Shown here: positions 301 to 34,489 of the stretch, in pieces | How the letters are laid out: each line of letters begins with the position of its first letter | Position numbering within the stretch: the stretch's first letter is position 1 | Source: a virus | Length of the DNA: 41,753 bases | Direction: 5' to 3' (one strand) | Virus record (IMG/VR): IMGVR_UViG_3300037427_001053 | Coordinates: 1-41,753 of that record | Position numbers and translations under genes: made by a program | The notes under the pieces: model-generated | The model's input: the letters and a program-made list of their open reading frames with translations, nothing else | Told to the model about the DNA's origin: nothing | The model's database searches: none

Positions 301-1077
301 TTATAAATAATCAATTACTTGGTTAGCATCTACATTAGCTATCAAGCAATCAATTGCTTCCTTTTTTATTTGCGATACAATTACCGTAGCTGTTGGTACT
401 GAGAGCTTTATATAATCCGCAATTTGTTTAGCGGAATGTTTATCACAGTCTAAACCATAGAATAATCGTAGCACGTCATATTGTTTTTGCGTTAAGTGTT
501 CTTTCATTAAACTTAACAAATAAGCATTAAGTAAATTAATGTTATAAGGTTCCGACTTGTCTGGCATTTGATATGCAAAGTTTTCGTCATTGTTAGGCTG
601 ACTATCATAACTAACAAAGATACTATTAAAGAACATAGAGACAAGCTTTTCATCTTTAGGGGACTTGCGGATCTCATTTAATTTATGTTCAGGTATTTTT
701 ATATTACCTCGATTAATATCTATTGCGCGTCTTATAGCGCCTTTAATTCTTTTAGCAAAGAAAGATTTCAATGTCTTCTCTATATCTTCTTGATTTTTAT
801 ACTCGCCTTCATCATTACGCATTAAAATCCAGTCTAGCTTATCAACCGCAAGCGTCAAACCTTTGCTGCCTTCTTGTATCAGATCATTGATACTAAGTAC
901 ACCAGAAGCTTGATCGCTGGTTGAAAATTTTCTTGCAAGATTTTCTACAAGTGGTAAGAACGTAGTGATAAGTTCATTACGTGTGTAGTCTTGAAATAAT
1001 TTATTAGGTATAAGTTTTAATACAACCTTTAAATCTTCTTTGTACCTAATATAGTTTTGTATATTATATTTTTTCAT
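301..1077 (-). CDS. Sigma-70-like RNA polymerase sigma factor
   Basis: The protein has 258 residues and the layout of a group 3 or 4 sigma factor. Residues 40-80 resemble region 2 (LPLVENLARKF, then INDLIQEGSKGL, matching the classic DLxQEGxxGL core-binding signature). Residues 105-122 (FFAKRIKGAIRRAIDI) look like the region 2.3/2.4 DNA-melting helix. IKIPEH near 127-132 resembles region 3. Residues 195-245 (LTQKQYDVLRLFYGLD to IKKEAIDCL) form a region 4 helix-turn-helix. It would bind host core RNA polymerase and redirect it to phage promoters. Its start codon overlaps the stop of the upstream HTH gene by 4 nt (ATGA), so the two are probably translationally coupled. Its target promoters are unknown. 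Candidates are the AT-rich leaders of the rightward virion genes. Confidence 0.85.
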   Translation of the reverse strand: MKKYNIQNYIRYKEDLKVVLKLIPNKLFQDYTRNELITTFLPLVENLARKFSTSDQASGVLSINDLIQEGSKGLTLAVDKLDWILMRNDEGEYKNQEDIEKTLKSFFAKRIKGAIRRAIDINRGNIKIPEHKLNEIRKSPKDEKLVSMFFNSIFVSYDSQPNNDENFAYQMPDKSEPYNINLLNAYLLSLMKEHLTQKQYDVLRLFYGLDCDKHSAKQIADYIKLSVPTATVIVSQIKKEAIDCLIANVDANQVIDYL

Positions 1078-1697
1078 AGTTGTTGATTCAGTAATTGTTT
1101 CTCACGTTTTAATTCTTCGTCCATGTTTCTATGTATCGTACGGGTGGAACACTTTAAATACTTTGCTAACTTATCTATTGTAATCTTATTTTTAGTGTCG
1201 TTAAGTATTAACATTGCATCATAAATTTCTGTACTCGATAATTTTTTACGGCCCACCATTTGTCCTACTATAGATAGCTTTTGTCTCATATCTAAACCAG
1301 TATATTCTTTAAATATAATCTTACGTAGTTTGTTAGGTGGTGGTTTTTCTAAATCCATAAGTGATACATCATAAATCATGCTCTGTTGTAATTGCTCTGA
1401 TATATTAAATGTAACATAACCGTATATTTTATCGCATATCATTCGTGTTACCTCTGTAAAATCTTGTGCATCGAATTGTGGGTTTAAATACCATAATACA
1501 TACAAATGCCATTTTAATGATTTATATGTAGTGATCTTTGCTCTTGATGCAAACAGGTGATAACACTGGTGCGTACCTTGTTCGTAAAACCATCCCCATT
1601 CATACTCTATCGCTTTTGGTTTATCGGTTGTAGGGTTTCTTCTATATATTATCCGCCTGTCATTTAAGAACTTTAAATTTCTTTCGTATTGTGACAT
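1074..1697 (-). CDS. Putative DNA-binding protein with C-terminal helix-turn-helix
   Basis: This is a 207-residue basic protein of no family I can name. The C-terminal part, about residues 172-192 (ITIDKLAKYLKCSTRTIHRN), reads as a helix-turn-helix: a helix, a short turn after the Cys, and a recognition helix with STRTIHR. The N-terminal half is rich in Trp, Tyr and His (EWGWFYEQG, WHLYVLWYLNP) and may be a folded ligand- or protein-binding domain. It is the first gene of a two-gene unit with the sigma-like factor and overlaps it by 4 nt, which suggests that the two act together, for example in controlling late transcription. A transcriptional activator, an anti-sigma-type partner or a replication protein would all fit. 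Confidence 0.6.
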   Translation of the reverse strand: MSQYERNLKFLNDRRIIYRRNPTTDKPKAIEYEWGWFYEQGTHQCYHLFASRAKITTYKSLKWHLYVLWYLNPQFDAQDFTEVTRMICDKIYGYVTFNISEQLQQSMIYDVSLMDLEKPPPNKLRKIIFKEYTGLDMRQKLSIVGQMVGRKKLSSTEIYDAMLILNDTKNKITIDKLAKYLKCSTRTIHRNMDEELKREKQLLNQQL

Positions 1698-1734
1698 TAG
1701 CTTCTTACTATTATATTATTATTATCTATCGTCG

Positions 1735-3589: not shown

Positions 3590-3624
3590 ATTATTATCGT
3601 AATCCATTCGTGTTTGTTATGTAA
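3590..3624 (-). promoter_or_regulatory. Three-block 35-nt element, copy G
   Basis: On the minus strand the copy reads TTACATA-N3-AACACGAA-N4-ATTACGATAATA within a fixed 35-nt frame shared with seven other copies. It lies 4 nt upstream of the ATG at 3586 and 4 nt from the 3' end of the tRNA-Met. It probably starts transcription of the ligase operon. Confidence 0.7.
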
Positions 3625-3628
3625 TTAG

Positions 3629-3702
3629 GTGCGCCAGCAGGATTCGAACCTGCGACCTCTAGGTTATGAGCCTAGCGAGCTGACCAACTGCTCCACAGCG
3701 CA
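3629..3702 (-). tRNA. tRNA-Met (anticodon CAT)
   Basis: A full cloverleaf can be folded on the minus strand. The acceptor stem TGCGCTG pairs with TGGCGCA, including two G-T pairs. Position 8 is T, the D stem is GAGC/GCTC, and the anticodon stem CTAGG/CCTAG holds the loop CTCATAA. The T stem GCAGG/CCTGC has the loop TTCGAAT. The first base pair is T1-A72 rather than the C1xA72 mismatch of initiator tRNAs, so an elongator Met (or a lysidine-modified Ile) tRNA is more likely than an initiator. No CCA is encoded: the discriminator is C, followed by CT. It lies between the structured RNA at 3708-3893 and the promoter-like element of the ligase operon and is probably co-transcribed with the RNA. 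Confidence 0.93.
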
Positions 3703-3707
3703 ATATT

Positions 3708-3893
3708 TTGAGAGGCGGACAGGACTGGAATGTTAGAGATGCTTGCGACTTACTCACAAGGGGACTTATACTCTTTTCTCTGTTTATCCTGTCTTTCTGC
3801 CGGGTAATAACTATTGAGTGTTTTTAGTACTTGTGTACTTGCATTCTCACTCGCATTACTACTCGATACGGCTTCCAACCTTAAACCTCTCAA
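3708..3893 (-). ncRNA. Candidate structured non-coding RNA (~186 nt)
   Basis: The gap between the tRNA-Met and the next gene has no reading frame but folds into nested helices. A closing helix TTGAGAGG/CCTCTCAA joins 3708-3715 to 3886-3893. One arm is 3869-3872 with 3799-3802, then 3855-3859 with 3804-3808, then 3848-3852 with 3816-3820, then a 5-bp hairpin at 3826-3839 with a 4-nt loop. A second arm is the 7-bp helix 3718-3724 with 3787-3793, enclosing a 7-bp hairpin 3742-3748/3754-3760. That hairpin contains a G-U pair on the minus strand but an A-C mismatch on the plus strand, which favours the minus strand as the transcript. The 5' helix includes the TGA stop of the gene at 3890-4180. No match to tmRNA, RNase P or a known riboswitch was recognised. 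Confidence 0.6.
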
Positions 3894-4180
3894 TCTAGTA
3901 AAACCATATAAGCTTCACTATTATTCTTTCTAAACCAAGTAAGTGCTTTATGAAAATCTTTTAATTGTTGTTCACTTACATTTCTTGGGGTTTTAGCGAA
4001 TACCCAGTTCATACCTTGTATAAAATCGTATATACTTAGTTCTGGTCCGGTTAGTTCGTAAGACTCTCCGCTAAACGGGTTTGTAACTGTATCACCTTCG
4101 GTATACCAGCTACCTAAAAACCACTTAGGCTTCTGTTGTTTCTTTTTCTGGGAATTCATATCCGTCATTTTGTAGTTCAT
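3890..4180 (-). CDS. Conserved small phage protein (KWFLGSWY..NPFSGE family)
   Basis: This is a 96-residue protein with the core KPKWFLGSWYTEGDTVTNPF, SGESYELTGPELSIYDFIQG and FRKNNSEAYMVLLD. Proteins with this core occur next to small nucleotide and DNA genes in cyanophages and other marine phages, without a known function. The start at 4180 overlaps the upstream gene by 56 nt. Met8 at 4159 gives a shorter overlap and may be the true start, since the conserved part begins after residue 15. The stop codon lies within the 5' helix of the structured RNA just downstream. Confidence 0.7.
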   Translation of the reverse strand: MNYKMTDMNSQKKKQQKPKWFLGSWYTEGDTVTNPFSGESYELTGPELSIYDFIQGMNWVFAKTPRNVSEQQLKDFHKALTWFRKNNSEAYMVLLD

Positions 4181-4574
4181 CTATTAGTTCATTTTTTTTC
4201 TCGTCGTATACTTCTTCGTATAGTTCATCTATTACGTCTGTGATCCAATACTCATCATTATCCCAGCCTTCGCATTGGATAAGTTCAACACTGTAGTCTT
4301 GAATTGCTTCTTTAAGGCTGTCGCCTAGATCGTTTTCGTAGTAATGTACGTTTTCATTTACATTTATATTTCTGTCGTCATCAGTAGTTACCCACACTTC
4401 ATAGCCGTCAGCTGTAGTTTCAGAGTATATAAAGTAATCAGCATTACCTTTCCACTCAGAAGTTAATTCAACTTCGTAATGGCCGAGCACAATATCACAT
4501 TTCTCTGTGTATTCTGCATCATCGTTCCAGTCTAATCTTTCGTCGATTAGCTCGTCGGTTATTAGCTTACTCAT
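4125..4574 (-). CDS. Acidic hypothetical protein
   Basis: The protein has 149 residues with a very high Asp/Glu content (ELIDERLDWNDDAEYTEKCD, ending EKETTEA). Two stretches look like a beta-rich fold in the middle (DIVLGHYEVELTSEW, ADGYEVWVTTDDD). Small acidic phage proteins of this kind often mimic DNA or bind host proteins, but nothing here proves that. It overlaps the previous gene by 8 nt and is the second gene of the operon starting at 4800. Confidence 0.6.
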   Translation of the reverse strand: MSKLITDELIDERLDWNDDAEYTEKCDIVLGHYEVELTSEWKGNADYFIYSETTADGYEVWVTTDDDRNINVNENVHYYENDLGDSLKEAIQDYSVELIQCEGWDNDEYWITDVIDELYEEVYDEKKNELIDELQNDGYEFPEKETTEA

Positions 4575-4800
4575 CTTTGATTAAGAATTTATCACCGTAC
4601 ATAAAATCATATGCTGATAGCGAATAGCTACTTTCTTCGGTATAGGTTATTAAATCTCTTAATTGGTCGATTGTTAATTCATACCATATGGTCTTAGATA
4701 GTAAGACATATTTAAGTCTGGATGCGGTACTGTACTTCACGCTTGACTCTTCGAGCTTGTCTTTGTACTCAGGTTTTAGTCTATTATATATATTTATCAT
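4567..4800 (-). CDS. Hypothetical protein, first gene of a leftward operon
   Basis: This 77-residue mixed-charge protein (MINIYNRLKPEYKDKLEESS) is of no recognised family. It is probably helical, with a Tyr/Ser-rich C-terminal third. Its ATG lies 6 nt downstream of copy F of the 35-nt element, which makes it the first gene of the unit that includes the acidic protein, the 3890-4180 gene, the structured RNA and the tRNA-Met. Confidence 0.55.
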   Translation of the reverse strand: MINIYNRLKPEYKDKLEESSVKYSTASRLKYVLLSKTIWYELTIDQLRDLITYTEESSYSLSAYDFMYGDKFLIKDE

Positions 4801-4805
4801 TTGTT

Positions 4806-4840
4806 TATATTATCGTTTACAAATCGTGTTGTGTTTGTAA
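4806..4840 (-). promoter_or_regulatory. Three-block 35-nt element, copy F
   Basis: On the minus strand the blocks are TTACAAA, AACACGAT and AAACGATAATA at the standard spacing of 3 and 4 nt. It overlaps the last codons and the TAA of the gene at 4817-5008 and stands 6 nt upstream of the next start at 4800. Confidence 0.75.
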
Positions 4841-5008
4841 ATACATTTTCTCGATCGCTTTAGCCACCACATACTTATGTAATTCCATGTATTCGTCTCC
4901 ATCTTGCTCATAATCAGATAGTTGCCAGTGCGTACTATCGTCCATTAGCTCTAACGAAACATCAGCAATTCCGTCTGCTATCTCGTCTAATTGTTTCATT
5001 TTACTCAT
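4817..5008 (-). CDS. Small acidic hypothetical protein
   Basis: This 63-residue acidic protein (MSKMKQLDEIADGIADVSLE) has no recognised family. Its last seven residues, LQTQHDL, and the stop codon are encoded by copy F of the 35-nt element. The C-terminus is therefore shaped by the regulatory DNA. The gene at 5811-6014 ends LQNQYDS for the same reason. The start shares one base with the previous stop (TAATG). Confidence 0.55.
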   Translation of the reverse strand: MSKMKQLDEIADGIADVSLELMDDSTHWQLSDYEQDGDEYMELHKYVVAKAIEKMYLQTQHDL

Positions 5009-5277
5009 TAGTTTCCGTATTCTATTGTTTTTTTACTTGTTACCATCCATTCTATATTGCTAACACTGTGACCAGCGCCAGTTAAGAACGCTTCACAGCT
5101 TTCACTATTAGGATTCCATTTGTTTTTATCGTTACATAGTGCGCTAATGTCATACCTATATACATTGCCATCATTAAAATCTAGTACAAATATAAACCTA
5201 GGTATATGTTCATTTAATTCTTTTGCTATTACTTTTTCTTCTTGCATTTCGTGCCATGCTTTTATTGTATCACTCAT
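5008..5277 (-). CDS. Hypothetical protein
   Basis: The protein has 89 residues with an N-terminal helix (KAWHEMQEEKVIAKELNEHI). A likely beta hairpin follows (RFIFVLDFNDGNVYRYDIS), then a C-terminal part with SNIEWMVTSKKTIEYG. No family was recognised. It begins 4 nt inside the previous gene (ATGA) and ends one base before the next start, so it is embedded in the operon starting at 5796. Confidence 0.55.
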   Translation of the reverse strand: MSDTIKAWHEMQEEKVIAKELNEHIPRFIFVLDFNDGNVYRYDISALCNDKNKWNPNSESCEAFLTGAGHSVSNIEWMVTSKKTIEYGN

Positions 5278-5612
5278 AATTGATAGTCTCTTACGTATTC
5301 TAGTTGTTTTCTTAATTCTTTTAAACCTACTCTTGTGGCTTTCTCAGTGTTGCCACCAATATGCCATCTTAATAGTTCGTGTACATCAAATTCTCTGTAC
5401 TCTTTCCAGTCATACACAGTGAACACTACACCTTCAGGCGTTTCAAAGTCAAAATCATATTGTGATTTTTCATTTACATCACCTGAATTGTCAGCGTACT
5501 CACATCCGTTGTTCTCTGCTAATATCATTAATTCATTAGCGCTGGCTTTAATAGTTATACCGTGATAACTAGTGCCATTAGTTTTTTTACCTGCATTTTT
5601 AAGCTTGAACAT
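5274..5612 (-). CDS. Conserved phage hypothetical protein with FTVYDWKEYR motif
   Basis: The protein has 112 residues. It contains YHGITIKASANELMILAE near residue 16, then a beta-rich part with VVFTVYDWKEYREFD and WHIGGNTEKATRVGLKELRKQL. The combination of YHG-T-I at the front, a (V/F)TVYDWKEYR strand and a WHIG motif is a recurring small protein in phages of Bacteroidetes and other hosts; its function is unknown to me. It overlaps its neighbours by 14 and 4 nt. Confidence 0.65.
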   Translation of the reverse strand: MFKLKNAGKKTNGTSYHGITIKASANELMILAENNGCEYADNSGDVNEKSQYDFDFETPEGVVFTVYDWKEYREFDVHELLRWHIGGNTEKATRVGLKELRKQLEYVRDYQL

Positions 5613-5796
5613 AAGTAAATCCTTTAAAGTTAAACCATTTGCTAATTCCCGGCCTCAACACAATGTCATTGTTTTCATCATGGTCGATGAAATGTTTTTG
5701 ACCAAATGTTGGTGGTAAGTTACCTACAACATATGGTTTGTATTCAACACCGTTGAGTAGGATTTTGTTTTCGTTTTTAAATTTTATTGTATTCAT
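5599..5796 (-). CDS. Small hypothetical protein, first gene of operon E
   Basis: This 65-residue protein (MNTIKFKNENKILLNGVEYK) reads as a small beta-rich fold. It lies 3 nt downstream of copy E of the 35-nt element. If that element is a promoter with its last block near -10, the transcript would start at or next to the ATG, giving a leaderless or nearly leaderless mRNA. Confidence 0.55.
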   Translation of the reverse strand: MNTIKFKNENKILLNGVEYKPYVVGNLPPTFGQKHFIDHDENNDIVLRPGISKWFNFKGFTYVQA

Positions 5797-5799
5797 ACT

Positions 5800-5834
5800 A
5801 TTATTATCGTTTAGGAATCGTATTGATTTTGTAA
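5800..5834 (-). promoter_or_regulatory. Three-block 35-nt element, copy E
   Basis: The minus-strand blocks TTACAAA, AATACGAT and AAACGATAATA are close to the consensus. The element encodes the C-terminal LQNQYDS and stop of the gene at 5811-6014 and lies 3 nt before the next ATG at 5796. Confidence 0.75.
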
Positions 5835-6014
5835 GATATTTTCTATCTTATCTTCCATCGCCGTTATTTCGTGTGCTAGTTCTAGTATTTTCTCTAGTCC
5901 TCTAGTTTCGAATTGGCTTAAAGCTTCGCCGCAATCGCTATCATATAGTTGATCGACCACGTCTTGCATGTCTAGTGAGGTATTTTCATACCTACAGTAA
6001 CTCATATTTGGCAT
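5811..6014 (-). CDS. MSYCRYENT-type small phage protein
   Basis: This 67-residue protein contains MSYCRYENTSLDMQDVVDQL. Small proteins opening MSYCRFENT with a following D-L-x-D helix are widespread in phages and plasmids and have no assigned function. The family start corresponds to Met4 (6005), so the first three residues may not be translated. The rest is helical (LEKILELAHEITAMEDKIE). The final residues and stop are encoded within copy E of the 35-nt element. Confidence 0.7.
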   Translation of the reverse strand: MPNMSYCRYENTSLDMQDVVDQLYDSDCGEALSQFETRGLEKILELAHEITAMEDKIENILQNQYDS

Positions 6015-6025
6015 AATTTATTGTT

Positions 6026-6319
6026 TTAGTCGCCGGTAAAGTTATCCCAGCGGGTTTTTGAATCATAGTAAGCTTGACAACCTGCATCATGAAGTCTTTG
6101 CATCTCTTTATGGTGCTCTATATTATCTAGATAGTCATCAATTTTATTGTGCATTTCGATTTCAGTCATAGTACCGAAGCTAACCACATTAACGTGTTGC
6201 AGTAAAGTTTCATCATCACAATGAAAACCTTTTGCTGGTTTCCCGTCAAACGTGGTCCACTCGTGGTACTCATACGGTGTATCTCTATACGTTATGATAT
6301 CGTCATTTTTATAGTTCAT
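6026..6319 (-). CDS. Hypothetical protein
   Basis: The protein has 97 residues. The N-terminal half looks beta-rich (DIITYRDTPYEYHEWTTFDG), and the C-terminal half is helical with His-rich stretches (NIEHHKEMQRLHDAG). Its start lies 16 nt downstream of the tRNA-like element, so it is probably translated from a processed transcript. No family was recognised. Confidence 0.55.
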   Translation of the reverse strand: MNYKNDDIITYRDTPYEYHEWTTFDGKPAKGFHCDDETLLQHVNVVSFGTMTEIEMHNKIDDYLDNIEHHKEMQRLHDAGCQAYYDSKTRWDNFTGD

Positions 6320-6334
6320 ATTATTTAGTTTTAG

Positions 6335-6423
6335 TGGACGTGGCAGGAATCGAACCTGCGTTAAGCGTCTCAGCCAACCTCCGCGTCTGGGGTCTGTACT
6401 TAGCTTCTAACCATTTCACGCCC
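6335..6423 (-). tRNA. tRNA-like element with intact acceptor and T arms, no normal anticodon arm
   Basis: On the minus strand a 7-bp acceptor stem GGGCGTG/CACGTCC (one G-T pair) and discriminator A enclose a perfect T arm (GCAGG, loop TTCGATT, CCTGC). The 57 nt between them cannot be folded by hand into a D arm plus a 5-bp anticodon stem with T33. Base 8 is A instead of T. The best internal pairing is a long hairpin starting AAGC/GCTT. The total length of 89 nt would suit a long-variable-arm tRNA (Ser, Leu, Tyr), but no anticodon can be read. It may be a degenerate tRNA, one with an insertion, or a tRNA mimic. Confidence 0.5.
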
Positions 6424-6425
6424 TA

Positions 6426-6641
6426 TTATCTTAAGCAAGTGCCATAACCGCGACGTCTACTCGATTTACGGATGACTTCCGCTTGAGCTTGAGACATAAT
6501 TTGAATGTTATTACCTGTTTTATGATTTGTGATAGGTGCACAACCATAAGCCTCGGTCGTAGAACACGACACACAGGTTTTGTAATTCAACTTAATTCGC
6601 ACTGGGTGTATTGCGTTGCCGCAGTTACATATACTTGCCAT
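6426..6641 (-). CDS. Small zinc-ribbon-like protein with HKTGN motif
   Basis: This 71-residue protein contains CNCGNAIHPVRI and CVSCS, two Cys pairs typical of a small zinc-binding fold. They are followed by ITNHKTGNNIQIM and a basic C-terminal helix ending KSSRRRGYG. The combination of a C4-type metal knuckle, an HKTGN segment and a basic R-R-G-[FY]-G tail is a recurring small phage protein, probably a nucleic-acid or protein binder. It starts 9 nt downstream of copy D of the 35-nt element and is followed by the tRNA-like element. Confidence 0.65.
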   Translation of the reverse strand: MASICNCGNAIHPVRIKLNYKTCVSCSTTEAYGCAPITNHKTGNNIQIMSQAQAEVIRKSSRRRGYGTCLR

Positions 6642-6649
6642 AGTTTTAT

Positions 6650-6684
6650 TTTATTATCGTTTTTAGTTCGTATTAACATTGTAA
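6650..6684 (-). promoter_or_regulatory. Three-block 35-nt element, copy D
   Basis: The minus-strand blocks are TTACAAT, AATACGAA and AAACGATAATA. It overlaps the 3' end of the gene at 6663-6875 and precedes the start at 6641. Confidence 0.7.
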
Positions 6685-6875
6685 TCATTCCACCTGCCAT
6701 TGTAAGCAAATGATTTGCCTTTACGATAGTTCGATCGTTGCGGTATTTTGTACCGCCTGTTACCCATACCACTACAAGGACCGTGTATTTTAGCCATTTC
6801 GTAGTGTTGGTGAGCACGTTTTTTCTTTTTGTCCGCTACATATTGTAGCAACTCTCTCATATTACTTACTTTCAT
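6663..6875 (-). CDS. Small basic hypothetical protein
   Basis: This 70-residue, very basic protein (ADKKKKRAHQHYEMAKIHG, then RRYKIPQRSNYRKGKSF) is probably a nucleic-acid binder or a disordered basic peptide. It starts 14 nt before the end of the previous small gene and ends inside copy D of the 35-nt element. A competing leftward frame at 6587-6817 covers the same DNA but fits the operon spacing less well. Confidence 0.5.
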   Translation of the reverse strand: MKVSNMRELLQYVADKKKKRAHQHYEMAKIHGPCSGMGNRRYKIPQRSNYRKGKSFAYNGRWNDYNVNTN

Positions 6876-7002
6876 TTGTTTGCTTATAAAAAGTTATTCT
6901 TTCTTCAACTTGTTCTCTAGTTAGCTCACCTTCCATTTGTTTACCAATGTAGTGAGTCATATCGATTTGTTTGCCGTTAGGACAGGTTAGTATAAATTGC
7001 AT
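6862..7002 (-). CDS. Small hypothetical protein (46 aa)
   Basis: The ATG at 7002 opens a 46-codon frame (MQFILTCPNGKQIDMTHYIG, then a helical half with EGELTREQVEERITFYK) that ends at TAA 6862-6864, overlapping the next start by 14 nt. The amphipathic composition, the tight overlap and the placement 10 nt after the preceding small gene support it. Function is unknown. Confidence 0.5.
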   Translation of the reverse strand: MQFILTCPNGKQIDMTHYIGKQMEGELTREQVEERITFYKQTNESK

Positions 7003-7012
7003 AGTTTAAATT

Positions 7013-7132
7013 TTAATAGAAATCATAGTATATATCCCACACATTACTTTTTTCTTCCTTAGTTAATAAGTTGAAATGTTTTTTGTATACTCTGAAAGAG
7101 ATTTTTAATAGGTATGTATTTTGATGTCCCAT
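7013..7132 (-). CDS. Small hypothetical protein (39 aa), first gene after element C
   Basis: The ATG at 7132 opens a 39-codon frame (MGHQNTYLLKISFRVYKKHF) ending at 7013. It lies 16 nt downstream of copy C of the 35-nt element and 10 nt before the next small gene. Function is unknown; the peptide is basic and aromatic. Confidence 0.45.
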   Translation of the reverse strand: MGHQNTYLLKISFRVYKKHFNLLTKEEKSNVWDIYYDFY

Positions 7133-7148
7133 GATTATTAGTATTTAT

Positions 7149-7183
7149 ATTGTTATCGTTATTATTTCGTATTAGTTTTGTAT
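7149..7183 (-). promoter_or_regulatory. Three-block 35-nt element, copy C
   Basis: The minus-strand blocks are ATACAAA, AATACGAA and ATAACGATAACA. It overlaps the last codons of the gene at 7172-7357 and precedes the small gene at 7013-7132. Confidence 0.65.
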
Positions 7184-7357
7184 TTGATTTATTAAATCGT
7201 TTGCTAACATTTCATATGTTTCGCCATCTTCTAAGTCACATTCGTATTTAACAAAGTTCCATAGTTCTCGGTAATTGTTTTCGTCTTTGGAATATAATTC
7301 CTTAAAGTACTCGATCGTTTCGTCGTTCCAGTAAAATTGGTTTTTAGTATTCTCCAT
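7172..7357 (-). CDS. Small acidic hypothetical protein
   Basis: This 61-residue acidic, aromatic protein (NQFYWNDETIEYFKELYSKD) has no recognised family. It overlaps the upstream gene by 14 nt, and its C-terminus runs into copy C of the 35-nt element. Confidence 0.5.
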   Translation of the reverse strand: MENTKNQFYWNDETIEYFKELYSKDENNYRELWNFVKYECDLEDGETYEMLANDLINQIQN

Positions 7358-7697
7358 ATTTATTTGTTAAGTATTTAAGTTGATTTGTTTTATTTCTTAA
7401 TATTCTTACAGTAGAATAATCTAATACATTTCCGTAACTTCCGTAGAATGTATTTCTTTTTACCCAATCTTTAATGAATTGAAATCTTTCTGAAGGGCAT
7501 GGTATAAGTATTCTTTTATACATTTCAAAATAGTTTCCGTCAGTATTAGGTGGAAGTTTTACTACTTTGTTAAGTTGGTATAGTCTATCTAAACCACTGT
7601 CAATTCTTACATAGCCAGAAGTATAAGAGTATATAACTCTACCGTCTTCTAGTTGGAATTTTTGAGTTCCGTTTTTGTTAATGTTTACTAATTTCAT
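7344..7697 (-). CDS. Hypothetical protein
   Basis: This 117-residue basic protein has an N-terminal beta-rich half (KFQLEDGRVIYSYTSGYVRI), an aromatic middle (RFQFIKDWVKRNTFYG) and a C-terminal basic helix. No family was recognised. It is the first gene after copy B of the 35-nt element, with its ATG 18 nt downstream. Confidence 0.55.
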   Translation of the reverse strand: MKLVNINKNGTQKFQLEDGRVIYSYTSGYVRIDSGLDRLYQLNKVVKLPPNTDGNYFEMYKRILIPCPSERFQFIKDWVKRNTFYGSYGNVLDYSTVRILRNKTNQLKYLTNKYGEY

Positions 7698-7714
7698 ATT
7701 ATTTATTTTACATT

Positions 7715-7749
7715 TATATTATCGTTTACCCTTCGTATCTAGTTTGTAA
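7715..7749 (-). promoter_or_regulatory. Three-block 35-nt element, copy B
   Basis: The minus-strand blocks TTACAAA, GATACGAA and AAACGATAATA nearly equal the consensus. This copy lies in true intergenic DNA rather than in the end of a gene, which shows that the element is conserved without coding constraint. Confidence 0.8.
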
Positions 7750-7882
7750 AAAGTATATTGTTTGTTTATTAGTTAAAATAGTTTATGTGGTATAATGCAC
7801 TATGTATACTTATGCAATTAGTAAAATATGACAATAGGTAGTTATAGTTATTATAATAAGTAGCTAATGTCACATTATTGTA
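7750..7882. other. AT-rich non-coding stretch
   Basis: I see no plausible gene in these 133 bases. They are AT-rich with scattered short inverted repeats and connect the structured region at 7883-8005 to element B. Confidence 0.5.
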
Positions 7883-8005
7883 GGACGGAGTATACTCTTC
7901 CGATCTACCGAAGTAGCCAGGCCACTGGTCCCGCAAGGGATTGCTCATTCAACGTTATTTATACCGGTGATGCTACAAGCGAAACGCGCCGGTTGTAATC
8001 AGGGT
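7883..8005 (-). ncRNA. Hairpin-rich intergenic region, possible structured RNA
   Basis: Directly after the stop of the gene at 8006-8311 the DNA can form four consecutive hairpins: 7888-7897 (perfect palindrome GAGTATACTC), 7905-7916 (CTAC/GTAG), 7917-7928 (CCAG/CTGG) and 7929-7940 (TCCC/GGGA). A more distant helix pairs ACCGG at 7963-7967 with CCGGT at 7989-7993, competing with TACAA 7974-7978 / TTGTA 7993-7997. On the minus strand the 7905-7916 loop is C(UUCG)G, a very stable tetraloop. No reading frame covers the region, and its GC content stands out from the AT-rich flank. It may be a processed RNA, a transcription terminator array or a protein-binding site. Confidence 0.45.
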
Positions 8006-8311
8006 CTACTGTACTTCAACCCTGTCGATTACGATATCTCTTACATTAGAAGGCATGTCAGTCGATTGTGACCAGTAACCTCTCTTAATCCAACATGGCA
8101 TGATGTTGAGTTTAGGTAACATTACTTTTAGAACCTCGTCGTGGTTATAAGTTATCTTTTGTTTTTTATTGTTTACAAAAGTTATAACTTGGTTTCTACC
8201 GTACCATGACTTTCTGACTACGAAATTCTTTCTTTCGATTGGAGGGAAGATTTCGTTTAGTTCTTCTTTACTTAGCTTAGAGATAGTCTCTGTTAATTTA
8301 GATTTATTCAT
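8006..8311 (-). CDS. Hypothetical protein
   Basis: The protein has 101 residues, with an N-terminal helical part (LTETISKLSKEELNEIFPPI) and a basic, beta-rich centre (RNQVITFVNNKKQKITYNHD). The C-terminal part contains MPCWIKRGYWSQSTDMPSNV. No family was recognised. It is expressed from element A and followed by the hairpin-rich region. Confidence 0.55.
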   Translation of the reverse strand: MNKSKLTETISKLSKEELNEIFPPIERKNFVVRKSWYGRNQVITFVNNKKQKITYNHDEVLKVMLPKLNIMPCWIKRGYWSQSTDMPSNVRDIVIDRVEVQ

Positions 8312-8335
8312 ATTTACTTATTAATTATTATTTAT

Positions 8336-8370
8336 ATTATTATCTTTATTGTTTCGTATTAGTTTAGTAA
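8336..8370 (-). promoter_or_regulatory. Three-block 35-nt element, copy A
   Basis: The minus-strand blocks are TTACTAA, AATACGAA and TAAAGATAATA. It overlaps the TAA stop of the small membrane-protein gene at 8364-8516 and lies about 24 nt upstream of the start at 8311. Confidence 0.65.
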
Positions 8371-8516
8371 CATATGTCACATGGTATGTGAGGTGCACCG
8401 TTAACTATTACATTGACCAGTATCATAACGCAACAGGTTACGATGAAGGTTACTGTGCCGTATACTATTATTCCTTCGGCTACCTTAAGGATTTTCTTGT
8501 GATTAAACTTTGTCAT
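8364..8516 (-). CDS. Small single-pass membrane protein (50 aa)
   Basis: The ATG at 8516 opens a 50-codon frame with a basic N-terminus (MTKFNHKKILKV). A single hydrophobic segment of about 23 residues follows (GIIVYGTVTFIVTCCVMILV), then a short tail ending PHIPCDICY. The layout is that of a small inner-membrane protein with the tail outside or in the periplasm; the CDIC pair could bind metal or form a disulfide. A mini-frame of four codons starts just upstream and could act as a leader. It is the first gene of the leftward arm, downstream of element H, so it may be made very early in infection, as is common for host-takeover or superinfection-exclusion proteins. That role is inference. Confidence 0.5.
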   Translation of the reverse strand: MTKFNHKKILKVAEGIIVYGTVTFIVTCCVMILVNVIVNGAPHIPCDICY

Positions 8517-8537
8517 ATATCTTATTTAGTATTCATA

Positions 8538-8572
8538 TATATTATCGTTGAGGTGCCGTGCTAGTGCTGTAT
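8538..8572 (-). promoter_or_regulatory. Three-block 35-nt element, copy H (most divergent)
   Basis: The minus-strand copy keeps block 3 (CAACGATAATATA) exactly in register, with degenerate blocks ATACAGC and AGCACGGC. It heads the leftward arm next to the divergent switch region. Confidence 0.6.
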
Positions 8573-8911
8573 GTGTAAATAAAAAAGTCAAAAGATCTGG
8601 TCAGAATCAGATGAGCTAGGTCTCGCGATGAGGTCCGGTCTAGGCGTTGTACTCATATATGCAAACGCTAAACAAAACAGGGGTGGGGGCTGGGTAAATA
8701 TATCGGACTTCCCAATTGAAAAGAAAAAAATGAAAATAAGGTGCAACCCTTTACTTCCCTATATCTTATAATTTTTTTTTACGCTTACGCGCATTAAATA
8801 ATATAATTATTAGTATAATTATATTTATATGACATTAGGTATATTAATATAATAGTAGCACCCTATCGTCACTTTTTTAAACTTTTATTTTTATACGTGA
8901 TCATACACAGT
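8573..8911. promoter_or_regulatory. Divergent non-coding switch region
   Basis: This stretch of about 340 nt separates the two transcription directions and holds no convincing gene. It contains a hairpin with ATCTG/CAGAT (8595-8612) and a second with GCGTT/AACGC near 8643-8670. A G-rich run GGGGTGGGGGCTGGG follows at about 8680-8694, then an A-rich tract. There is a 70-nt AT-only-like tract at about 8790-8860, preceded by TTACGCTTACGCGC. Such a mix of hairpins, G-run and AT tract fits a regulatory switch, a rightward promoter region or a replication origin, but none is proved. No copy of the 35-nt element was found on the plus strand here. Confidence 0.5.
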
Positions 8912-18878: not shown

Positions 18879-19122
18879 TTACTTTATTATAATAGATAAA
18901 ATTAAGGAAGCGCCGAAGAAAGTAGGTGGTTTGGAAATTACAGAAAAAAATAATAACGACATTAGGTACTTAAAAGCAAAGGTGGTTAGTGTAGGGGATA
19001 AGGTTGAACATATACAGAACGGCGATATAATTAGATATGACAAGCATGCAGGTCATGGTATCGAATGGAACGGCACACTTTACCAAGTTATTACAATTGG
19101 TGATGTGGTTATTGTAGAATGA
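18865..19122 (+). CDS. groES: Phage co-chaperonin, GroES/Cpn10
   Basis: The protein has 85 residues, starting at TTG 18865 inside the end of groEL (14-nt overlap). The alignment to GroES covers the N-terminal strand (INYFIIIDKIKEAPKKVGGL), the mobile loop GGLEI, and strands AKVVSVGDKV, NGDIIRYD and YQVITIGDVVIVE. It would cap the phage GroEL ring. It is slightly shorter than bacterial GroES (about 97 aa), because the roof loop is reduced. The TTG start is forced, since no ATG gives a full N-terminal strand. Confidence 0.9.
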   Translation: MKAINYFIIIDKIKEAPKKVGGLEITEKNNNDIRYLKAKVVSVGDKVEHIQNGDIIRYDKHAGHGIEWNGTLYQVITIGDVVIVE

Positions 19123-19559
19123 GATTAACTTCATCCGATTTAAGAGAATTAAATTTATTTAAATATTATAGGTTAGTGCGTAAGTGGGCATGTAAAACTT
19201 ACAACTTAAAAGACGCTGATTTAGAATTATTAATATATTTAGATTGTAAAAAGTTTTTTACAAGAAATGATTTTATTAATGGATCTTACACATATTCATG
19301 GGATAAAAACCGATGGGAACGTTTAAGAAAAAACGGATGGATTGATATTTATTCAGCAAGAAATAGAACTACAAATAAATTTAACACTTATACGACTTCA
19401 TATATTTGTAAAAATTTAATTAATAGAGTATATAGAATATTACTGGCAGAAGAAGACATGCCTACATCAGAACGAAGCAAGTTCTACAATAACAAAACAT
19501 ATACGGACAAAGTTTACAATAAAGCTATTGACGATATGATTAATGATAAAAATAGATAA
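19119..19559 (+). CDS. Putative winged-helix DNA-binding protein (marine phage family)
   Basis: The protein has 146 residues and starts inside groES with a 4-nt ATGA overlap. It contains LRELNLFKYYRLVRKWACKT, LKDADLELLIYLDCKKFFTR, then NRWERLRKNGWIDIYSARNR and RSKFYNNKTYTDKVYNKAID. This pattern (helices, then W-x-R-L-x-x-x-G-W-I beta wing and a basic loop) looks like a winged helix of the MarR-like type. I recognise the layout from marine phage genomes near structural genes but not a function. A regulator of late genes or a packaging accessory protein would fit. Confidence 0.6.
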   Translation: MRLTSSDLRELNLFKYYRLVRKWACKTYNLKDADLELLIYLDCKKFFTRNDFINGSYTYSWDKNRWERLRKNGWIDIYSARNRTTNKFNTYTTSYICKNLINRVYRILLAEEDMPTSERSKFYNNKTYTDKVYNKAIDDMINDKNR

Positions 19560-29156: not shown

Positions 29157-30410
29157 ATGGCTAAAGCAGCAAAAACAGAAGGTAGTTTTAAAATAAAAAA
29201 CACCAAAAAAACAAAAGAAGCTGAAGTTAAAGAATCTCCAGCTCAAACAGGACCAGCCGTTATTAACGAGGAAACTGGTAATATAAAACTTGATTTAACT
29301 AAAAAACCAGAACAAGATGCCAATACAAAGCAAGAAGCAGCAGACGTGGTTACAGATAAACAAGCCGAACCTGTACAAGAAGTGGAAAAAGAAATACCAC
29401 AACAACCAGAGCCCGTTCAAGCTGAAGAATCCGTACCTGAAAAACCAGTAGAAGAAACTGTACTTGAAGAAATAACGGAAGAAAAGAAAGAGGAAATAAC
29501 GCAAGAAGTTACACAAGAATTAAAAGAAGATGTAGCTGAAGCAATAGCGGAACAAAAAGAATCTGGTATAGAATTGCCTGAAAACATTCAAAAGGTTGTA
29601 GACTTTGTAAATGAAACAGGAGGTAGTTTAGAAGACTACGTAAAGCTAAATACTGATTATGATTCATTAAATGAAAATCAACTATTAGCAGAGTATTATC
29701 AAACATCGAAACCTCATCTTGATAGAGACGAAATTAACTTTATTATGGAAGATAAGTTTTCTTATAATGAAGATGAAGACGATGAAAAAGATATTAGAAA
29801 AAAGAAAATAGCAAGAAAAGAAGAACTTGCTAATGCAAAAAATTATTTAGATGGATTAAAATCTAAATATTATGCAGAAATAAAAGGCGGTAGTAAATTA
29901 TTACCGGAACAACAAAAAGCGGTAGAGTTCTTTAACCGATATAATAAAGAACAAAAAGAGCAATCATCCGTAGCTAAAAAGCAGACTGATGCGTTTTTAA
30001 ATAAAACAAACCAAGTTTTCAATGACGATTTCAAAGGTTTTGAATATAACGTCGGCGATAAAAAATATAGGTTTAATGTTAAAGACGCAAACAAGGTCAA
30101 GGATAGCCAGAGCGACATTAACAATTTTGTCAAGAAGTTCTTGAATGAAAATAATGAAATGTCAGATGCCTCCGGTTATCATAAAAGCTTATTTACAGCT
30201 ATGAATCCAGATCAAGTTGCAAAACACTTTTACGAACAAGGTAAAGCAGATGCAATTAAAGACAGTACAACAAAAGCCAAAAACGTTAAGATGGGGGCGA
30301 GAGGTGTCCATTCAGATGTTAAGACTGCCAATGGTTGGAATGTTAGATCAGTTGGTTCGGGGAATGATAGCAGTAAACTTAAAATTAAAACATTTAAACA
30401 TTTAAAATAG
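29157..30410 (+). CDS. Scaffold-like protein (acidic, coiled coil)
   Basis: The protein has 417 residues. The first 130 residues are acidic and low-complexity with Glu/Lys/Val/Pro repeats (VEKEIPQQPEPVQAEESVPE, EEITEEKKEEITQEVTQELK). A SPAQ sequence occurs near residue 27. The middle is helical with a Lys/Glu-rich core (ELANAKNYLDGLKSKYYAEI). The C-terminus (WNVRSVGSGNDSSKLKIKTF) is basic and may be the capsid-binding end. Lying between portal and capsid, this is the expected place and composition of a scaffolding protein. Its leader (TTAACAATTA, then an AT tract, then ATCATGGCTAAA) is similar to the leader of the gene at 31992. Confidence 0.75.
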   Translation: MAKAAKTEGSFKIKNTKKTKEAEVKESPAQTGPAVINEETGNIKLDLTKKPEQDANTKQEAADVVTDKQAEPVQEVEKEIPQQPEPVQAEESVPEKPVEETVLEEITEEKKEEITQEVTQELKEDVAEAIAEQKESGIELPENIQKVVDFVNETGGSLEDYVKLNTDYDSLNENQLLAEYYQTSKPHLDRDEINFIMEDKFSYNEDEDDEKDIRKKKIARKEELANAKNYLDGLKSKYYAEIKGGSKLLPEQQKAVEFFNRYNKEQKEQSSVAKKQTDAFLNKTNQVFNDDFKGFEYNVGDKKYRFNVKDANKVKDSQSDINNFVKKFLNENNEMSDASGYHKSLFTAMNPDQVAKHFYEQGKADAIKDSTTKAKNVKMGARGVHSDVKTANGWNVRSVGSGNDSSKLKIKTFKHLK

Positions 30411-30416
30411 TAAATT

Positions 30417-31913
30417 ATGGCAGCACCAGGATTTGCGCAAGCGCCACCAACGTTGGCCAACTTAGCGCATTTGACTCCAAGACCCGTACAAGGTTTATTT
30501 GGTGATAACTATTTATCACTAGCCGATATGACTTGGACTCAACAATTTTTACCTGAAGTTTACGAGAAAGAAGTAGAGCGTTATGGAAACAGAACGATTA
30601 CTGGTTTCTTAAGAATGGTAGGGGCAGAGATGCCTATGGCATCAGACCAAGTAGTTTGGTCAGAACAAGGAAGATTACACATTGCATATGATACAGTTAC
30701 ATCAAATGCACCAGGCGCAGGCCCGGGTGGACAAACAATTTCATTACCTTCTCCGGGAGCTGATGGGAATGTACCACTTTTAGGACCTGGTATGACTTGT
30801 GTTATCGCACTTGGAAACGATACAAATAATATTTACATTAATAGTTTAGCAGGACCTGTTGCAGGTGGTTTGCAAACATACAATATTGATGTATATGATG
30901 ACGCTAACAACGTACTAGATGTAGCCCTTCAAGGAGCTGCTGCAGGTGGGGAGTTAAGCTTATTTGTTTTCGGTTCAGAATACAAAAAAGGATCACCAGA
31001 GGGTGGAAATTCTATTGATGCTTCCTTTACAAGTTTTAGTAATCAACCAATTATCATCAGAGATAAGTATGAAGTAAACGGTTCAGACGTTGCTCAAATC
31101 GGATGGGTTGAAGTTACTACTGAAATTGGTACAGGTGGTTATCTATGGTACTTAAAATCTGAGCACGAGTCTAGAATTAGATTCGAAGATTACTTAGAAA
31201 TGAGTATGGTAGAATCAAAGAATGTAGAGCAAGTGGTAGCAGGTGTACCAGGCTTTACAGGATTCCAAGGTGGAAACCTACAAGGTATGCAAGGTTTATT
31301 TGCTACACTAGAAGAAAGAGGATTGGTATATAATGACCCAGCATTTGCAGAACCTGCGGGAGCTGCTGGTGGTTCAGGAATCGATCAGTTCGATACTATT
31401 CTACAAGAGCTTGATAAGCAGGGAGCAATTGAAGAGAACATGTTATTCTTAGACAGACAGACATCTCTTGATATTGATACTATGTTAGCACAGCAAAATT
31501 CTTACGGAGCAGGAGGTACATCTTATGGTGTATTTGATAACTCTGAAGATATGGCGCTTAACTTAGGATTCTCTGGTTTCAGACGTGGAGCATATGACTT
31601 TTACAAAACTGACTGGAAATATCTAAATGACTCTACAACTAGAGGACTTATTGACGATATTAAAGGTGTGTTAGTACCAGCAGGAACTTCTACAGTTTAC
31701 GATCAACAATTAGGACAGAATATTTCAAGACCATTCTTACACATTCGCTACAGAGCTTCTGAAGCTGATGACAGAAGGTTAAAATCTTGGGTAACTGGTT
31801 CAGTTGGTGGTAACTATACAAGTGACGCAGACACAATGACTGTTAACTTCTTATCGGAGAGAACAATGTGTACGCAAGCCGCTAACAACTTTGTATTATT
31901 CAAAGCTACTTAG
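30417..31913 (+). CDS. Major capsid protein
   Basis: The protein has 498 residues. It starts MAAPGFAQAPPTLANLAHL, then PVQGLFGDNYLSLADMTWTQ, FLPEVYEKEVERYGNRTITG and FLRMVGAEMPMASDQVVWSE. This region looks like the N-arm and the E-loop start of the HK97-fold capsid of crAss-like and related marine podoviruses. A central part with LFATLEERGLVYNDPAFAEP and FDTILQELDKQGAIEENMLF suits the P-domain. The sequence lies between the scaffold and a terminator, and has a higher share of C-ending codons (for example AAC, TTC, GAC) than the flanking genes, as expected for a strongly expressed product. The exact family needs a profile search, but position and length fit the main capsid subunit well. Confidence 0.85.
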   Translation: MAAPGFAQAPPTLANLAHLTPRPVQGLFGDNYLSLADMTWTQQFLPEVYEKEVERYGNRTITGFLRMVGAEMPMASDQVVWSEQGRLHIAYDTVTSNAPGAGPGGQTISLPSPGADGNVPLLGPGMTCVIALGNDTNNIYINSLAGPVAGGLQTYNIDVYDDANNVLDVALQGAAAGGELSLFVFGSEYKKGSPEGGNSIDASFTSFSNQPIIIRDKYEVNGSDVAQIGWVEVTTEIGTGGYLWYLKSEHESRIRFEDYLEMSMVESKNVEQVVAGVPGFTGFQGGNLQGMQGLFATLEERGLVYNDPAFAEPAGAAGGSGIDQFDTILQELDKQGAIEENMLFLDRQTSLDIDTMLAQQNSYGAGGTSYGVFDNSEDMALNLGFSGFRRGAYDFYKTDWKYLNDSTTRGLIDDIKGVLVPAGTSTVYDQQLGQNISRPFLHIRYRASEADDRRLKSWVTGSVGGNYTSDADTMTVNFLSERTMCTQAANNFVLFKAT

Positions 31914-31934
31914 TAGTAAACTAATGTAAGGAAC

Positions 31935-31969
31935 GGGTGTCTTCGGGCACCCAATCTTTACTTTTTATT
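31935..31969 (+). terminator. Strong hairpin terminator after the capsid gene
   Basis: GGGTGTC (31935-31941), loop TTCG, GGCACCC (31946-31952) form a 7-bp stem with one T-G pair and a UUCG tetraloop, followed by a T-rich tract ending CTTTTTATT. This is a classical Rho-independent terminator. It should attenuate transcription downstream of the capsid gene. Confidence 0.88.
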
Positions 31970-31991
31970 AACAATTATATTATATTATATC

Positions 31992-32747
31992 ATGGCTAAA
32001 ACAGCAACACAATGGGAAGTTAAAGATAGACTTTATAAACTTACCAAAAATAAAAAACCTTTAATATTTACCATACCAACAGCTCATTCACAAAGAAAAG
32101 CTTTATTATGGTTTGATGAAAATTTAGGTTACCAAAGAGAATTACGATACGCAACAAATCAGCCTTCTGTTTTTGTAGATGAACAAAAAGGGAAAGCAAC
32201 AATGGGTAGAGTAATATTTAGAAACGGGCAATTAAGAGTAAAAAAAGAAGATGTAACTCTTCAAAAGTTTTTATCCTTATATCACCCGTATATGAAAGAG
32301 GGTATTATTGAAGAAATAAAACCAAAAGAGCAAGCAGTAAATGAAGTTGCTTGGATTGAGTTTGAATTGCAAGCTTTAAATCTTGCTAAGCAAGCTACAG
32401 TAGATGAGGCAGAAGCTATATTAAGAGTTGAAGTTGGAGAGAAAGTTAATAGATTATCTTCAGAAGAATTAAAAAGAGATTTATTAGTATTTGCTAGAAA
32501 AAATCCTCAGCTATTTTTACAACTAGCACAAGATGAAAACACTGAGTTGAGAAACTTTGGTGCAAAAGCAATTGAAGCTGGTATATTAAAATTATCACAA
32601 GACCAAAGAACATTTACTTATGGCAAGAGTGGTAAAAAAGTATTGACAGTACCATTTGATGAACATCCTTATTCTGCACTAAGTGCATACTTTAAGACTG
32701 ACGAGGGTATGGAGCTTTACAAGAATATAGAAAAAAGACTTAAATAG
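31992..32747 (+). CDS. Putative virion-assembly protein downstream of capsid
   Basis: This 251-residue protein (MAKTATQWEVKDRLYKLTKN, then a beta-rich half with YQRELRYATNQPSVFVDEQ) has a second half that is helical (DEAEAILRVEVGEKVNRLSS, FGAKAIEAGILKLSQDQRTF). No family is certain. Its place after the capsid fits a decoration, head-completion or connector protein. Its leader and first codons resemble those of the scaffold gene at 29157 (TTAACAATTA, AT tract, ATCATGGCTAAA). Confidence 0.6.
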   Translation: MAKTATQWEVKDRLYKLTKNKKPLIFTIPTAHSQRKALLWFDENLGYQRELRYATNQPSVFVDEQKGKATMGRVIFRNGQLRVKKEDVTLQKFLSLYHPYMKEGIIEEIKPKEQAVNEVAWIEFELQALNLAKQATVDEAEAILRVEVGEKVNRLSSEELKRDLLVFARKNPQLFLQLAQDENTELRNFGAKAIEAGILKLSQDQRTFTYGKSGKKVLTVPFDEHPYSALSAYFKTDEGMELYKNIEKRLK

Positions 32748-32810
32748 TCACCTTTTATAGTAATAGGCTATCTAAGGGTGGCCTATTATTATAATAACAA
32801 AATATAAATT
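32748..32810 (+). terminator. Hairpin TAATAGGC/GCCTATTA between two structural genes
   Basis: TAATAGGC (32761-32768) pairs exactly with GCCTATTA (32781-32788), with a 12-nt loop, followed by an AT tract without a clear T run. A competing helix pairs CACC at 32750-32753 with GGTG at 32777-32780. It may be a weak terminator or RNA-stabilising hairpin between the genes. Confidence 0.55.
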
Positions 32811-33551
32811 ATGGCTGTAAGCGTAGATACTGTATATCAAAGAGTATTAGCAATACTTAATAAAGAACAACGAGGATATGTAACACCTCAGCAATTTAAC
32901 TTGTTTGCTAATCAAGCACAATTGGATATATTCGAACAGTACTTTTATGATATAAATCAATTTGGCCGTATACCAGGAAACGATACAGAGTTTTCTGACA
33001 TGCTAAATATACTTAATGAAAAGATTAGCATATTTGAAGTCAACGATGATATGACTTATGCAAATAACTATTGGAGCCCACCCGCTGATATTTACAGAAT
33101 GGGTACGATAGTTTACAAAAACACCACAGAGGGTTTTACATTAAACCCAAGTGCTACTACAACTATTGAAACATTTGTAGAAGCCGAGCGAATTGAATAC
33201 AATGATTTTCTTTATATCAATCAATCCGCATACACACGTCCAACAAACACAAGACCTATATTTATAGAGAATAGTTCAGGCTACAAAGTATATGGCAATA
33301 CCGAGTTAACATCGGATGTAACGTGTAATTATATTAAAAAGCCCGCTGAAGTAGTTTGGGGCTACCAAATTGTTTATGGTGAAGCACTTTATGATGCAAC
33401 AACAGCGACTAATTTTGAACTGCATGATTCGGAAGAAACAGAGTTAGTTGTTAAAATCTTAGAGTTTGCAGGCTTAAATGTTGAAGACGTGCAGATGTAT
33501 CAAATAGCTAATAGCATGGAACAAGAAACTAACCAACAAGAAAAAGCTTAA
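32811..33551 (+). CDS. Putative head-tail connector protein 1
   Basis: This 246-residue protein (MAVSVDTVYQRVLAILNKEQ, RGYVTPQQFNLFANQAQLDI, FEQYFYDINQFGRIPGNDTE) shows the opening of a conserved marine phage head-tail or ring protein. The middle is beta-rich (YWSPPADIYRMGTIVYKNTT, ETFVEAERIEYNDFLYINQS). It is acidic and ends in a charged tail. Position after capsid and head-completion genes suits a connector or ring protein; the exact role is not established. Confidence 0.65.
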   Translation: MAVSVDTVYQRVLAILNKEQRGYVTPQQFNLFANQAQLDIFEQYFYDINQFGRIPGNDTEFSDMLNILNEKISIFEVNDDMTYANNYWSPPADIYRMGTIVYKNTTEGFTLNPSATTTIETFVEAERIEYNDFLYINQSAYTRPTNTRPIFIENSSGYKVYGNTELTSDVTCNYIKKPAEVVWGYQIVYGEALYDATTATNFELHDSEETELVVKILEFAGLNVEDVQMYQIANSMEQETNQQEKA

Positions 33552-33554
33552 TAT

Positions 33555-34484: not shown

Positions 34485-34489
34485 ATAAT

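Follow-up and report, generated by a model that had tools for sequence, protein, structure and literature searches.

A repeated three-block element as a predicted promoter of short operons in phages related to flavobacterial phages

In a 41,753-base phage fragment of IMG/VR (record IMGVR_UViG_3300037427_001053, positions 1 to 41,753; "the window" means this whole stretch), a three-block element of 35 nucleotides (nt), which we name E1, precedes small leftward genes in eight copies. E1 is almost certainly a promoter with a predictable start site, judging from the letters of E1 sites in the window and in related phages. We consider it rather probable that these sites are multi-subunit polymerase promoters of short early operons, most likely used by the host core enzyme together with a sigma factor encoded by the phage.

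Eight copies of E1 in the window

An earlier note on this DNA had claimed eight minus-strand copies with constant spacing, and all of them were found. The copies and the predicted transcription starts (+1) are as follows.

3590 to 3624, minus strand: E1 copy; predicted +1 A3586, the A of the ATG (leaderless)
4806 to 4840, minus strand: E1 copy; predicted +1 A4802, ATG at 4800
5800 to 5834, minus strand: E1 copy; predicted +1 A5796, the A of the ATG (leaderless)
6650 to 6684, minus strand: E1 copy; predicted +1 A6646, ATG at 6641; a tmRNA-like (transfer-messenger RNA-like) RNA lies about 230 nt downstream
7149 to 7183, minus strand: E1 copy; predicted +1 A7145
7715 to 7749, minus strand: E1 copy; predicted +1 G7711, ATG at 7697
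8336 to 8370, minus strand: E1 copy; predicted +1 A8332, ATG at 8311
8538 to 8572, minus strand: E1 copy, the weakest of the eight; predicted +1 G8534, ATG at 8516
1427 to 1459, minus strand: candidate ninth copy, 24.3 bits, ranking next after the eight

A pattern search allowing at most 3 mismatches recovers six of the eight copies and gives no match in 100 shuffles. With a weight matrix and leave-one-out scoring, seven copies score 28-37 bits, whereas 50 order-1 shuffles of the window reached 14.0 bits at best; the weakest copy (8538-8572) scores 14.7 bits, a small margin over that value. This confirms that the eight copies are not due to chance, the weakest being only marginally above shuffled sequence. 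The copy at 7715-7749 is nearest to the cross-phage consensus (40.6 bits on a refined matrix, which was trained on the same loci that it scans). The weaker ninth candidate came from the eight-copy matrix and lies within the gene for a protein with an HTH_11 domain, about 350 nt upstream of the start of the sigma gene.

Every copy is followed by an ATG 2-24 nt further on, where the note had put about 4-25 nt, and five overlap the end of the upstream open reading frame, as it had said (LQTQHDL, LQNQYDS and three more). The ATG at 3607, which it suspected of being unused, falls within the element, and the likely start is 3586. In contrast, the third block had been given as AAACGATAATA, and this had to be corrected: the block is shorter and less fixed across relatives. 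Near invariance is limited to GATAATA; which base precedes it (C, T, A or G) depends on the lineage.

E1 recurs on one strand in related phages

The terminase of the window is nearest to that of MW202828 (62%), and other near terminases belong to Flavobacterium Elemovirus and to Cellulophaga, Tenacibaculum and Maribacter phages. The gene order is as in Elemovirus, namely small leftward genes followed by rightward structural genes (GroEL, terminase, portal). Therefore, from the terminase relatives and this gene order, the host is probably a flavobacterium.

Scanning viral contigs for exact matches to part of the motif yielded 102 loci, many of which are contig fragments, and related phages among them are not independent samples. 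These loci separate cleanly into carriers with several copies on a single strand and others, most of which have none. Many IMG/VR phage contigs of about 60 kilobases (kb), from dozens of uncultured phages, contain several E1 copies each, with the motif TTACAAAnnnAAYACGAn8nGATAATA; the consensus of 257 distinct sites is TTACARNCTNAAYACGAN8nGATAATA. Thus, copies are present in close relatives, a check that the earlier note had proposed. The motif is absent from the more distant Elemovirus and MW202828, both of which also lack the sigma gene; they have structural genes in common with the window phage but carry neither sigma, nor E1, nor the replication-side genes that were tested, and HTH_11 has a marginal match at most in Elemovirus. 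A repeated motif common with Elemovirus was sought and none was found. The early region of MW202828 (L006) contains about 15 copies of the palindrome GTGTCGTTAACGACAC, which is a different regulatory system, and no E1 motif.

Among 25 genomes of approximately 59-69 kb, 187 sites were on the early strand and 1 on the opposite strand. Of these 187, 180 lie at most 12 kb upstream of the sigma gene; few are located downstream of it, where the replication and nucleotide genes sit. Within the leftward cluster, E1 sites head small uncharacterised genes that occupy its promoter-proximal end, a position suggesting that these genes are early.

A start-site signature follows GATAATA

We aligned 584 sites on GATAATA. 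Its sixth following base is G in 67%, A in 32% and C or T in about 1%. In other words, a purine stands at the predicted +1, seven bases past the T of GATAAT, in 99% of the sites, and the base at -1 is T or C in 80%. Apart from this purine column, the sequence below GATAATA is A-rich. The purine is retained in 273 of 280 sites whose two preceding bases are not AT; thus, start codons do not account for the column. For the first good ATG, the commonest distance is 23-29 nt past GATAATA, corresponding to a leader of about 18-24 nt, and the median leader in Flavobacterium is 24 (PMC9723704). The predicted start column fits the pyrimidine-purine rule, and its distance is as expected if GATAAT is a -10 hexamer. 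Numbered from this predicted start, GATAAT occupies -12 to -7, AAYACGA -28 to -22 and TTACAAA -38 to -32, so that E1 has a sigma-type -10 with a start about 7 nt downstream. In many relatives, ATGTAA surrounds the predicted start (in 162 of the 249 sites that have ATG there), and a transcript from such a site would begin with GUAA.

Because of the start signature, the leader lengths and the strict orientation, E1 is almost certainly a sigma-type promoter and not a mere operator. The earlier note had proposed an early promoter or an operator; the promoter part stands, and a pure operator is disfavoured. It is very improbable that a repressor or co-regulator uses E1 sites as operators and that the promoters lie elsewhere. 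The fixed repeated spacing and the tandem half-sites would suit an operator, and a separate operator-like element (E2, described below) occurs in the same genomes. However, a start signature at one position in 584 sites and strict orientation are unexpected for an operator alone; moreover, the -10-like core is invariant and its flanks are variable.

A phage sigma factor co-occurs with E1

The window encodes the following protein.

301 to 1077, minus strand: phage sigma-70-family factor of 258 amino acids (aa), with regions 2 and 4 (PHROG 351; Pfam; AlphaFold)

It has consistent, though weak, matches to Pfam Sigma70_r2 and Sigma70_r4 that fall under the curated cut-offs, and its AlphaFold model matches sigma-A chains with E about 1e-5; the predicted template modelling score of 0.50 supports the domains, not their arrangement. 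The sigma gene is found in 31 of 50 motif-carrying contigs, a figure limited by fragmentary contigs, versus 0 of 48 chance pattern matches (Fisher p = 1e-12). Conversely, at least 3 E1 sites are present in 87 of the 97 sigma loci that have at least 5 kb upstream. We searched INPHARED for an isolate phage with this sigma and found none.

The earlier note had left the choice between a host and a phage-modified polymerase. This can be narrowed to the host core enzyme with the co-occurring phage sigma, where the sigma is the presumed reader. We put the probability that it reads E1 at a little over one half. In the proposed mechanism, GATAAT would serve as the -10 element, with a pyrimidine-purine start seven bases on and an A-rich leader of 0-24 nt. 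The normal -35 element would be replaced by two direct repeats of about 6 base pairs (bp), 11 bp apart on one helix face: TACAAA at about -36 and YACGAA at about -25. Region 2 of the phage sigma would read GATAAT, and region 4 would touch the -25 block; thus, the protein at 301-1077 may read GATAAT and perhaps AAYACGA too. For the -36 block, the reader would be either region 4 or another factor that can be exchanged.

Comparison with known promoters

The phage sigmas gp36 of phiEco32 and gp47 of Salmonella phage 7-11 use middle and late promoters of the form GTAAtg-16-aCTA or tAATGTAtA (PMC8948821). As in those phages, the sigma considered here is sigma-70-related, the predicted start is 6-9 bp from the downstream element and early genes diverge from late genes; phage 7-11 also has a two-part promoter class, to which E1 can be likened. 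In contrast to those sigmas, which serve middle and late genes, E1 heads early-type genes and has three blocks, a conserved -25 and another sequence.

Bacteroidetes sigma-A promoters have TTTG at -33 and TAnnTTTG at -7, with T-12, A-11, T-8, T-7, T-6 and G-5 (PMC6847099). E1 resembles them in its short A-rich leaders and in the start-to-ATG distance. However, its core is mismatched at -12, -8, -6 and -5; the consensus has G-12, A-8 and A-6, so that the misfit claimed by the earlier note holds. Host polymerase with a host sigma, a phage factor being unnecessary, is a quite unlikely reader of E1. A host sigma does serve the early genes of many phages, for example phage 7-11 (PMC8948821), and GATAAT differs from the classical TATAAT by one base. 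However, E1 does not fit the bases from -12 to -5 and the -33 TTTG that flavobacterial sigma-A requires (PMC6847099), the motif is seen only with phages carrying this sigma, and the upstream blocks differ among related phages. As to sigma-70 (TTGACA-17-TATAAT), GATAAT is a near-match, and the upstream blocks, about 20 and 9 nt away, differ in place and sequence, so that the claimed misfit to the 17-nt spacing was also borne out.

In class II PhoB promoters, repeats replace the -35 element just upstream of the -10. E1 likewise has direct repeats 11 bp apart in the -35 place, and its gap from repeat to -10 is about 2 bp shorter than in the classical PhoB arrangement. The Pho box consists of two direct repeats of about 7 bp with 11-bp spacing (PMC2648988). 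Unlike the Pho box, E1 has an unrelated sequence, and a PhoB-like protein was not identified; a candidate winged helix, judged by eye, is the fam10 protein described below. The letters TAATACGA of the T7-type promoter (TAATACGACTCACTATAG) occur in E1 block 2, a resemblance that we take as chance. A T7-like polymerase promoter based on TAATACGA was rejected on layout (33-bp span, sigma-like -10). A search of 32 genomes for a single-subunit polymerase with PF00940 gave no match; the positive control was silent too, and the search is hence uninformative.

Which factor reads the upstream blocks

We analysed co-variation between E1 bases and protein residues by corrected mutual information, using the sigma and five control proteins. 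The top pair was sigma residue 230 with base -23 (z 7.3), picked by scanning many column pairs. In the recognition helix of region 4.2, residue 230 is located at the start. Where it is N or D, the conserved G-23 is missing in 11 of 11 loci, versus 6 of 76 other loci; the site filter behind these counts demands some canonical letters, not those tested. On the tree there are about seven changes of this pair, none reversed, three of them on supported branches.

Several points weigh against the sigma as reader of the upstream blocks. Control proteins reach z 6.6 in the same scan, and the supported independent tree changes for residue 230 and -23 are too few for significance. Distances between whole sigma proteins fail to follow the upstream blocks (partial Mantel -0.29). 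The outliers L264 and L266 have other upstream blocks yet a canonical-like region 4.2 helix, and contact of region 4 with -25 is geometrically unusual. If the sigma is the reader, a bootstrap is moreover needed, since an E1-type site lies at most 150 nt upstream of the sigma gene itself in 14 of 131 sigma loci. The fragmentary state of many loci and the relatedness of the phages count here as well.

De novo alignment revealed E1 variants around the same sigma: TTTGCAAA in L111, L113 and L249; TTCGAAA in L126, L149 and L158; AAnAAGGTTGACACGA in L259; CACGGACTTAT in L266; CCCCC...TACTA in L264; and CTTGCAGATnTATAACGAA...TATAATAAC in L271, whose contig was assigned to a Saprospiraceae bin. Several of these variants still have a pair of short blocks 11 bp apart, and the distance to the -10 is constant. 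The direct repeat has an identity of 0.55 at lag 11, versus 0.16-0.39 at the other lags tested.

The main rival to reading by the sigma only is therefore a second factor for block 1: the upstream blocks would be read by another phage factor, either an activator that binds the 11-bp direct repeats in the manner of PhoB or a virion-borne protein, and the sigma, made early, would act later, for example on E2 and late promoters. We regard this as possible, on the doubtful side. In its favour, the blocks change among related phages while the helices of sigma and HTH_11 stay similar, lag 11 is the best of all lags tested, and the closely related L159 and L259 differ both in block 1 and in a giant virion protein. 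Moreover, motif distance tracks two other proteins better than sigma, namely fam10 (partial 0.38, p 0.003 uncorrected) and the giant virion protein, a mosaic (partial 0.35, p 0.009); 47 families were tested, and neither p survives correction. On the other side, fam10 is also present in relatives without the E1 motif, no polymerase domain was found in the giant protein of two relatives, and the link between residue 230 and -23 points to sigma. A compact promoter, in which sigma region 4 reads -25 rather than -35 and a different phage factor reads an exchangeable -36 block, is unlikely in our estimation.

The small late protein is located as follows.

19119 to 19559, plus strand: fam10, adjoining GroES; conserved in 25 of 25 genomes

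By eye, fam10 looks like a winged helix; it has no Pfam match, and its MW202828 homolog is annotated as a repressor. The giant virion protein, encoded past the right end of the window (e.g. G064 29564-38386, G033 47521-56157), is a mosaic of approximately 2,000-3,300 aa. Two phages that are 87% identical elsewhere have just about 35% of this protein in common by alignment. It was rejected as a virion polymerase, as neither Pfam nor PHROG gave a polymerase domain in the relatives. Three further candidates were set aside: sigma distance as proof of the reader, for which Mantel tests failed; HTH_11 as the factor that recognises the variable blocks, given a nearly constant helix and a distance that does not track blocks 1 and 2; and a better tracking of the motif by late genes than by early genes, where the difference was not significant.

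HTH_11, the E2 element and late signals

The sigma gene is preceded by the HTH_11 gene, and a second element, E2, occurs at three places.

1074 to 1697, minus strand: HTH_11 protein of 207 aa, overlapping the sigma start; present in 73 of 74 loci searched
1692 to 1733, minus strand: E2, an imperfect palindrome over the HTH_11 start codon
7829 to 7872, strand not assigned: E2 at the top of the early cluster
8831 to 8871, plus strand: E2 in the divergent early/late intergenic region, late direction

A fold search with HTH_11 gave no significant match. E2 is the imperfect palindrome TGACRATAG...GTAA...GCTAATGTCA, with up to several copies per genome. Most genomes carry it across the HTH_11 start and have one or two further copies close to where early and late genes diverge; with the pattern used, it was not found in 2 of 25 genomes. 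Because E2 and the HTH_11 helix are both conserved, E2 is probably the HTH_11 operator. If so, expression of HTH_11 and sigma would be coupled to the late switch. An RNA hairpin was rejected: in some phages one arm changes and its partner does not, and a DNA operator is therefore more likely. Host-type TAnnTTTG promoters ahead of the HTH_11/sigma pair were likewise discarded (9 of 87, versus 16 on the reverse strand). In nearly all genomes, TTATATAATATTTTATCATG or a near variant stands directly at the start of the family 8 gene, a structural gene after portal (probably window 29157, plus strand). TTATATAATATTTTATCATG is likely a late promoter with little or no leader.

A tmRNA-like mini-RNA in the early region

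Downstream of the E1 copy at 6650-6684 lies a small RNA-like sequence.

6332 to 6423, minus strand: tmRNA-like mini-RNA; also at 5301-5383 in L119, 5432-5513 in L113 and 5911-6062 in L111

We found 40 distinct copies of 68-152 nt. They resemble tmRNA only at its tRNA-like ends and lack the message and the pseudoknots. With the Rfam tmRNA model, two relatives score 64 and 57 bits, where the cut-off is 47, and the window scores 36. Among the 40 copies, acceptor pair 4 shows compensatory changes (CG 30, AU 8, GC 1, UA 1), as does T-arm pair 2 (CG 29, GC 11); the T arm is the cleaner evidence because the finder required acceptor pairs. G3-U70, the alanine identity pair, is retained in 39 of 40 copies, and an E1 promoter lies at most 700 nt upstream in 30 of 40. 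The mini-RNA may act as a decoy, either for ribosome rescue or for alanyl-tRNA synthetase. The early region also has gene-free stretches at 3706-3893 and 7875-8005 (both minus strand). Part of 3706-3893 resembles an insert of the tmRNA-like RNA in L111, L151 and L168 (common CGAGTAGTAATGCGAGTGA). Folding of gene-free early-region sequence was not clearly better than that of shuffled sequence.

Significance

At the sequence level, E1 describes the promoter regulon of a phage group that is common and has relatives among flavobacterial phages. We did not find such a description in the literature that we searched, and it carries base-exact predictions of start sites. If the compact-promoter reading is true, the promoter code would differ from one phage lineage to the next around a -10 and a start site that are conserved. 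The natural variants of the upstream blocks, together with the conserved -10 and sigma, offer a ready experiment on the evolution of phage promoter specificity, and E1 promoters may be a route to expression tools for Bacteroidetes.

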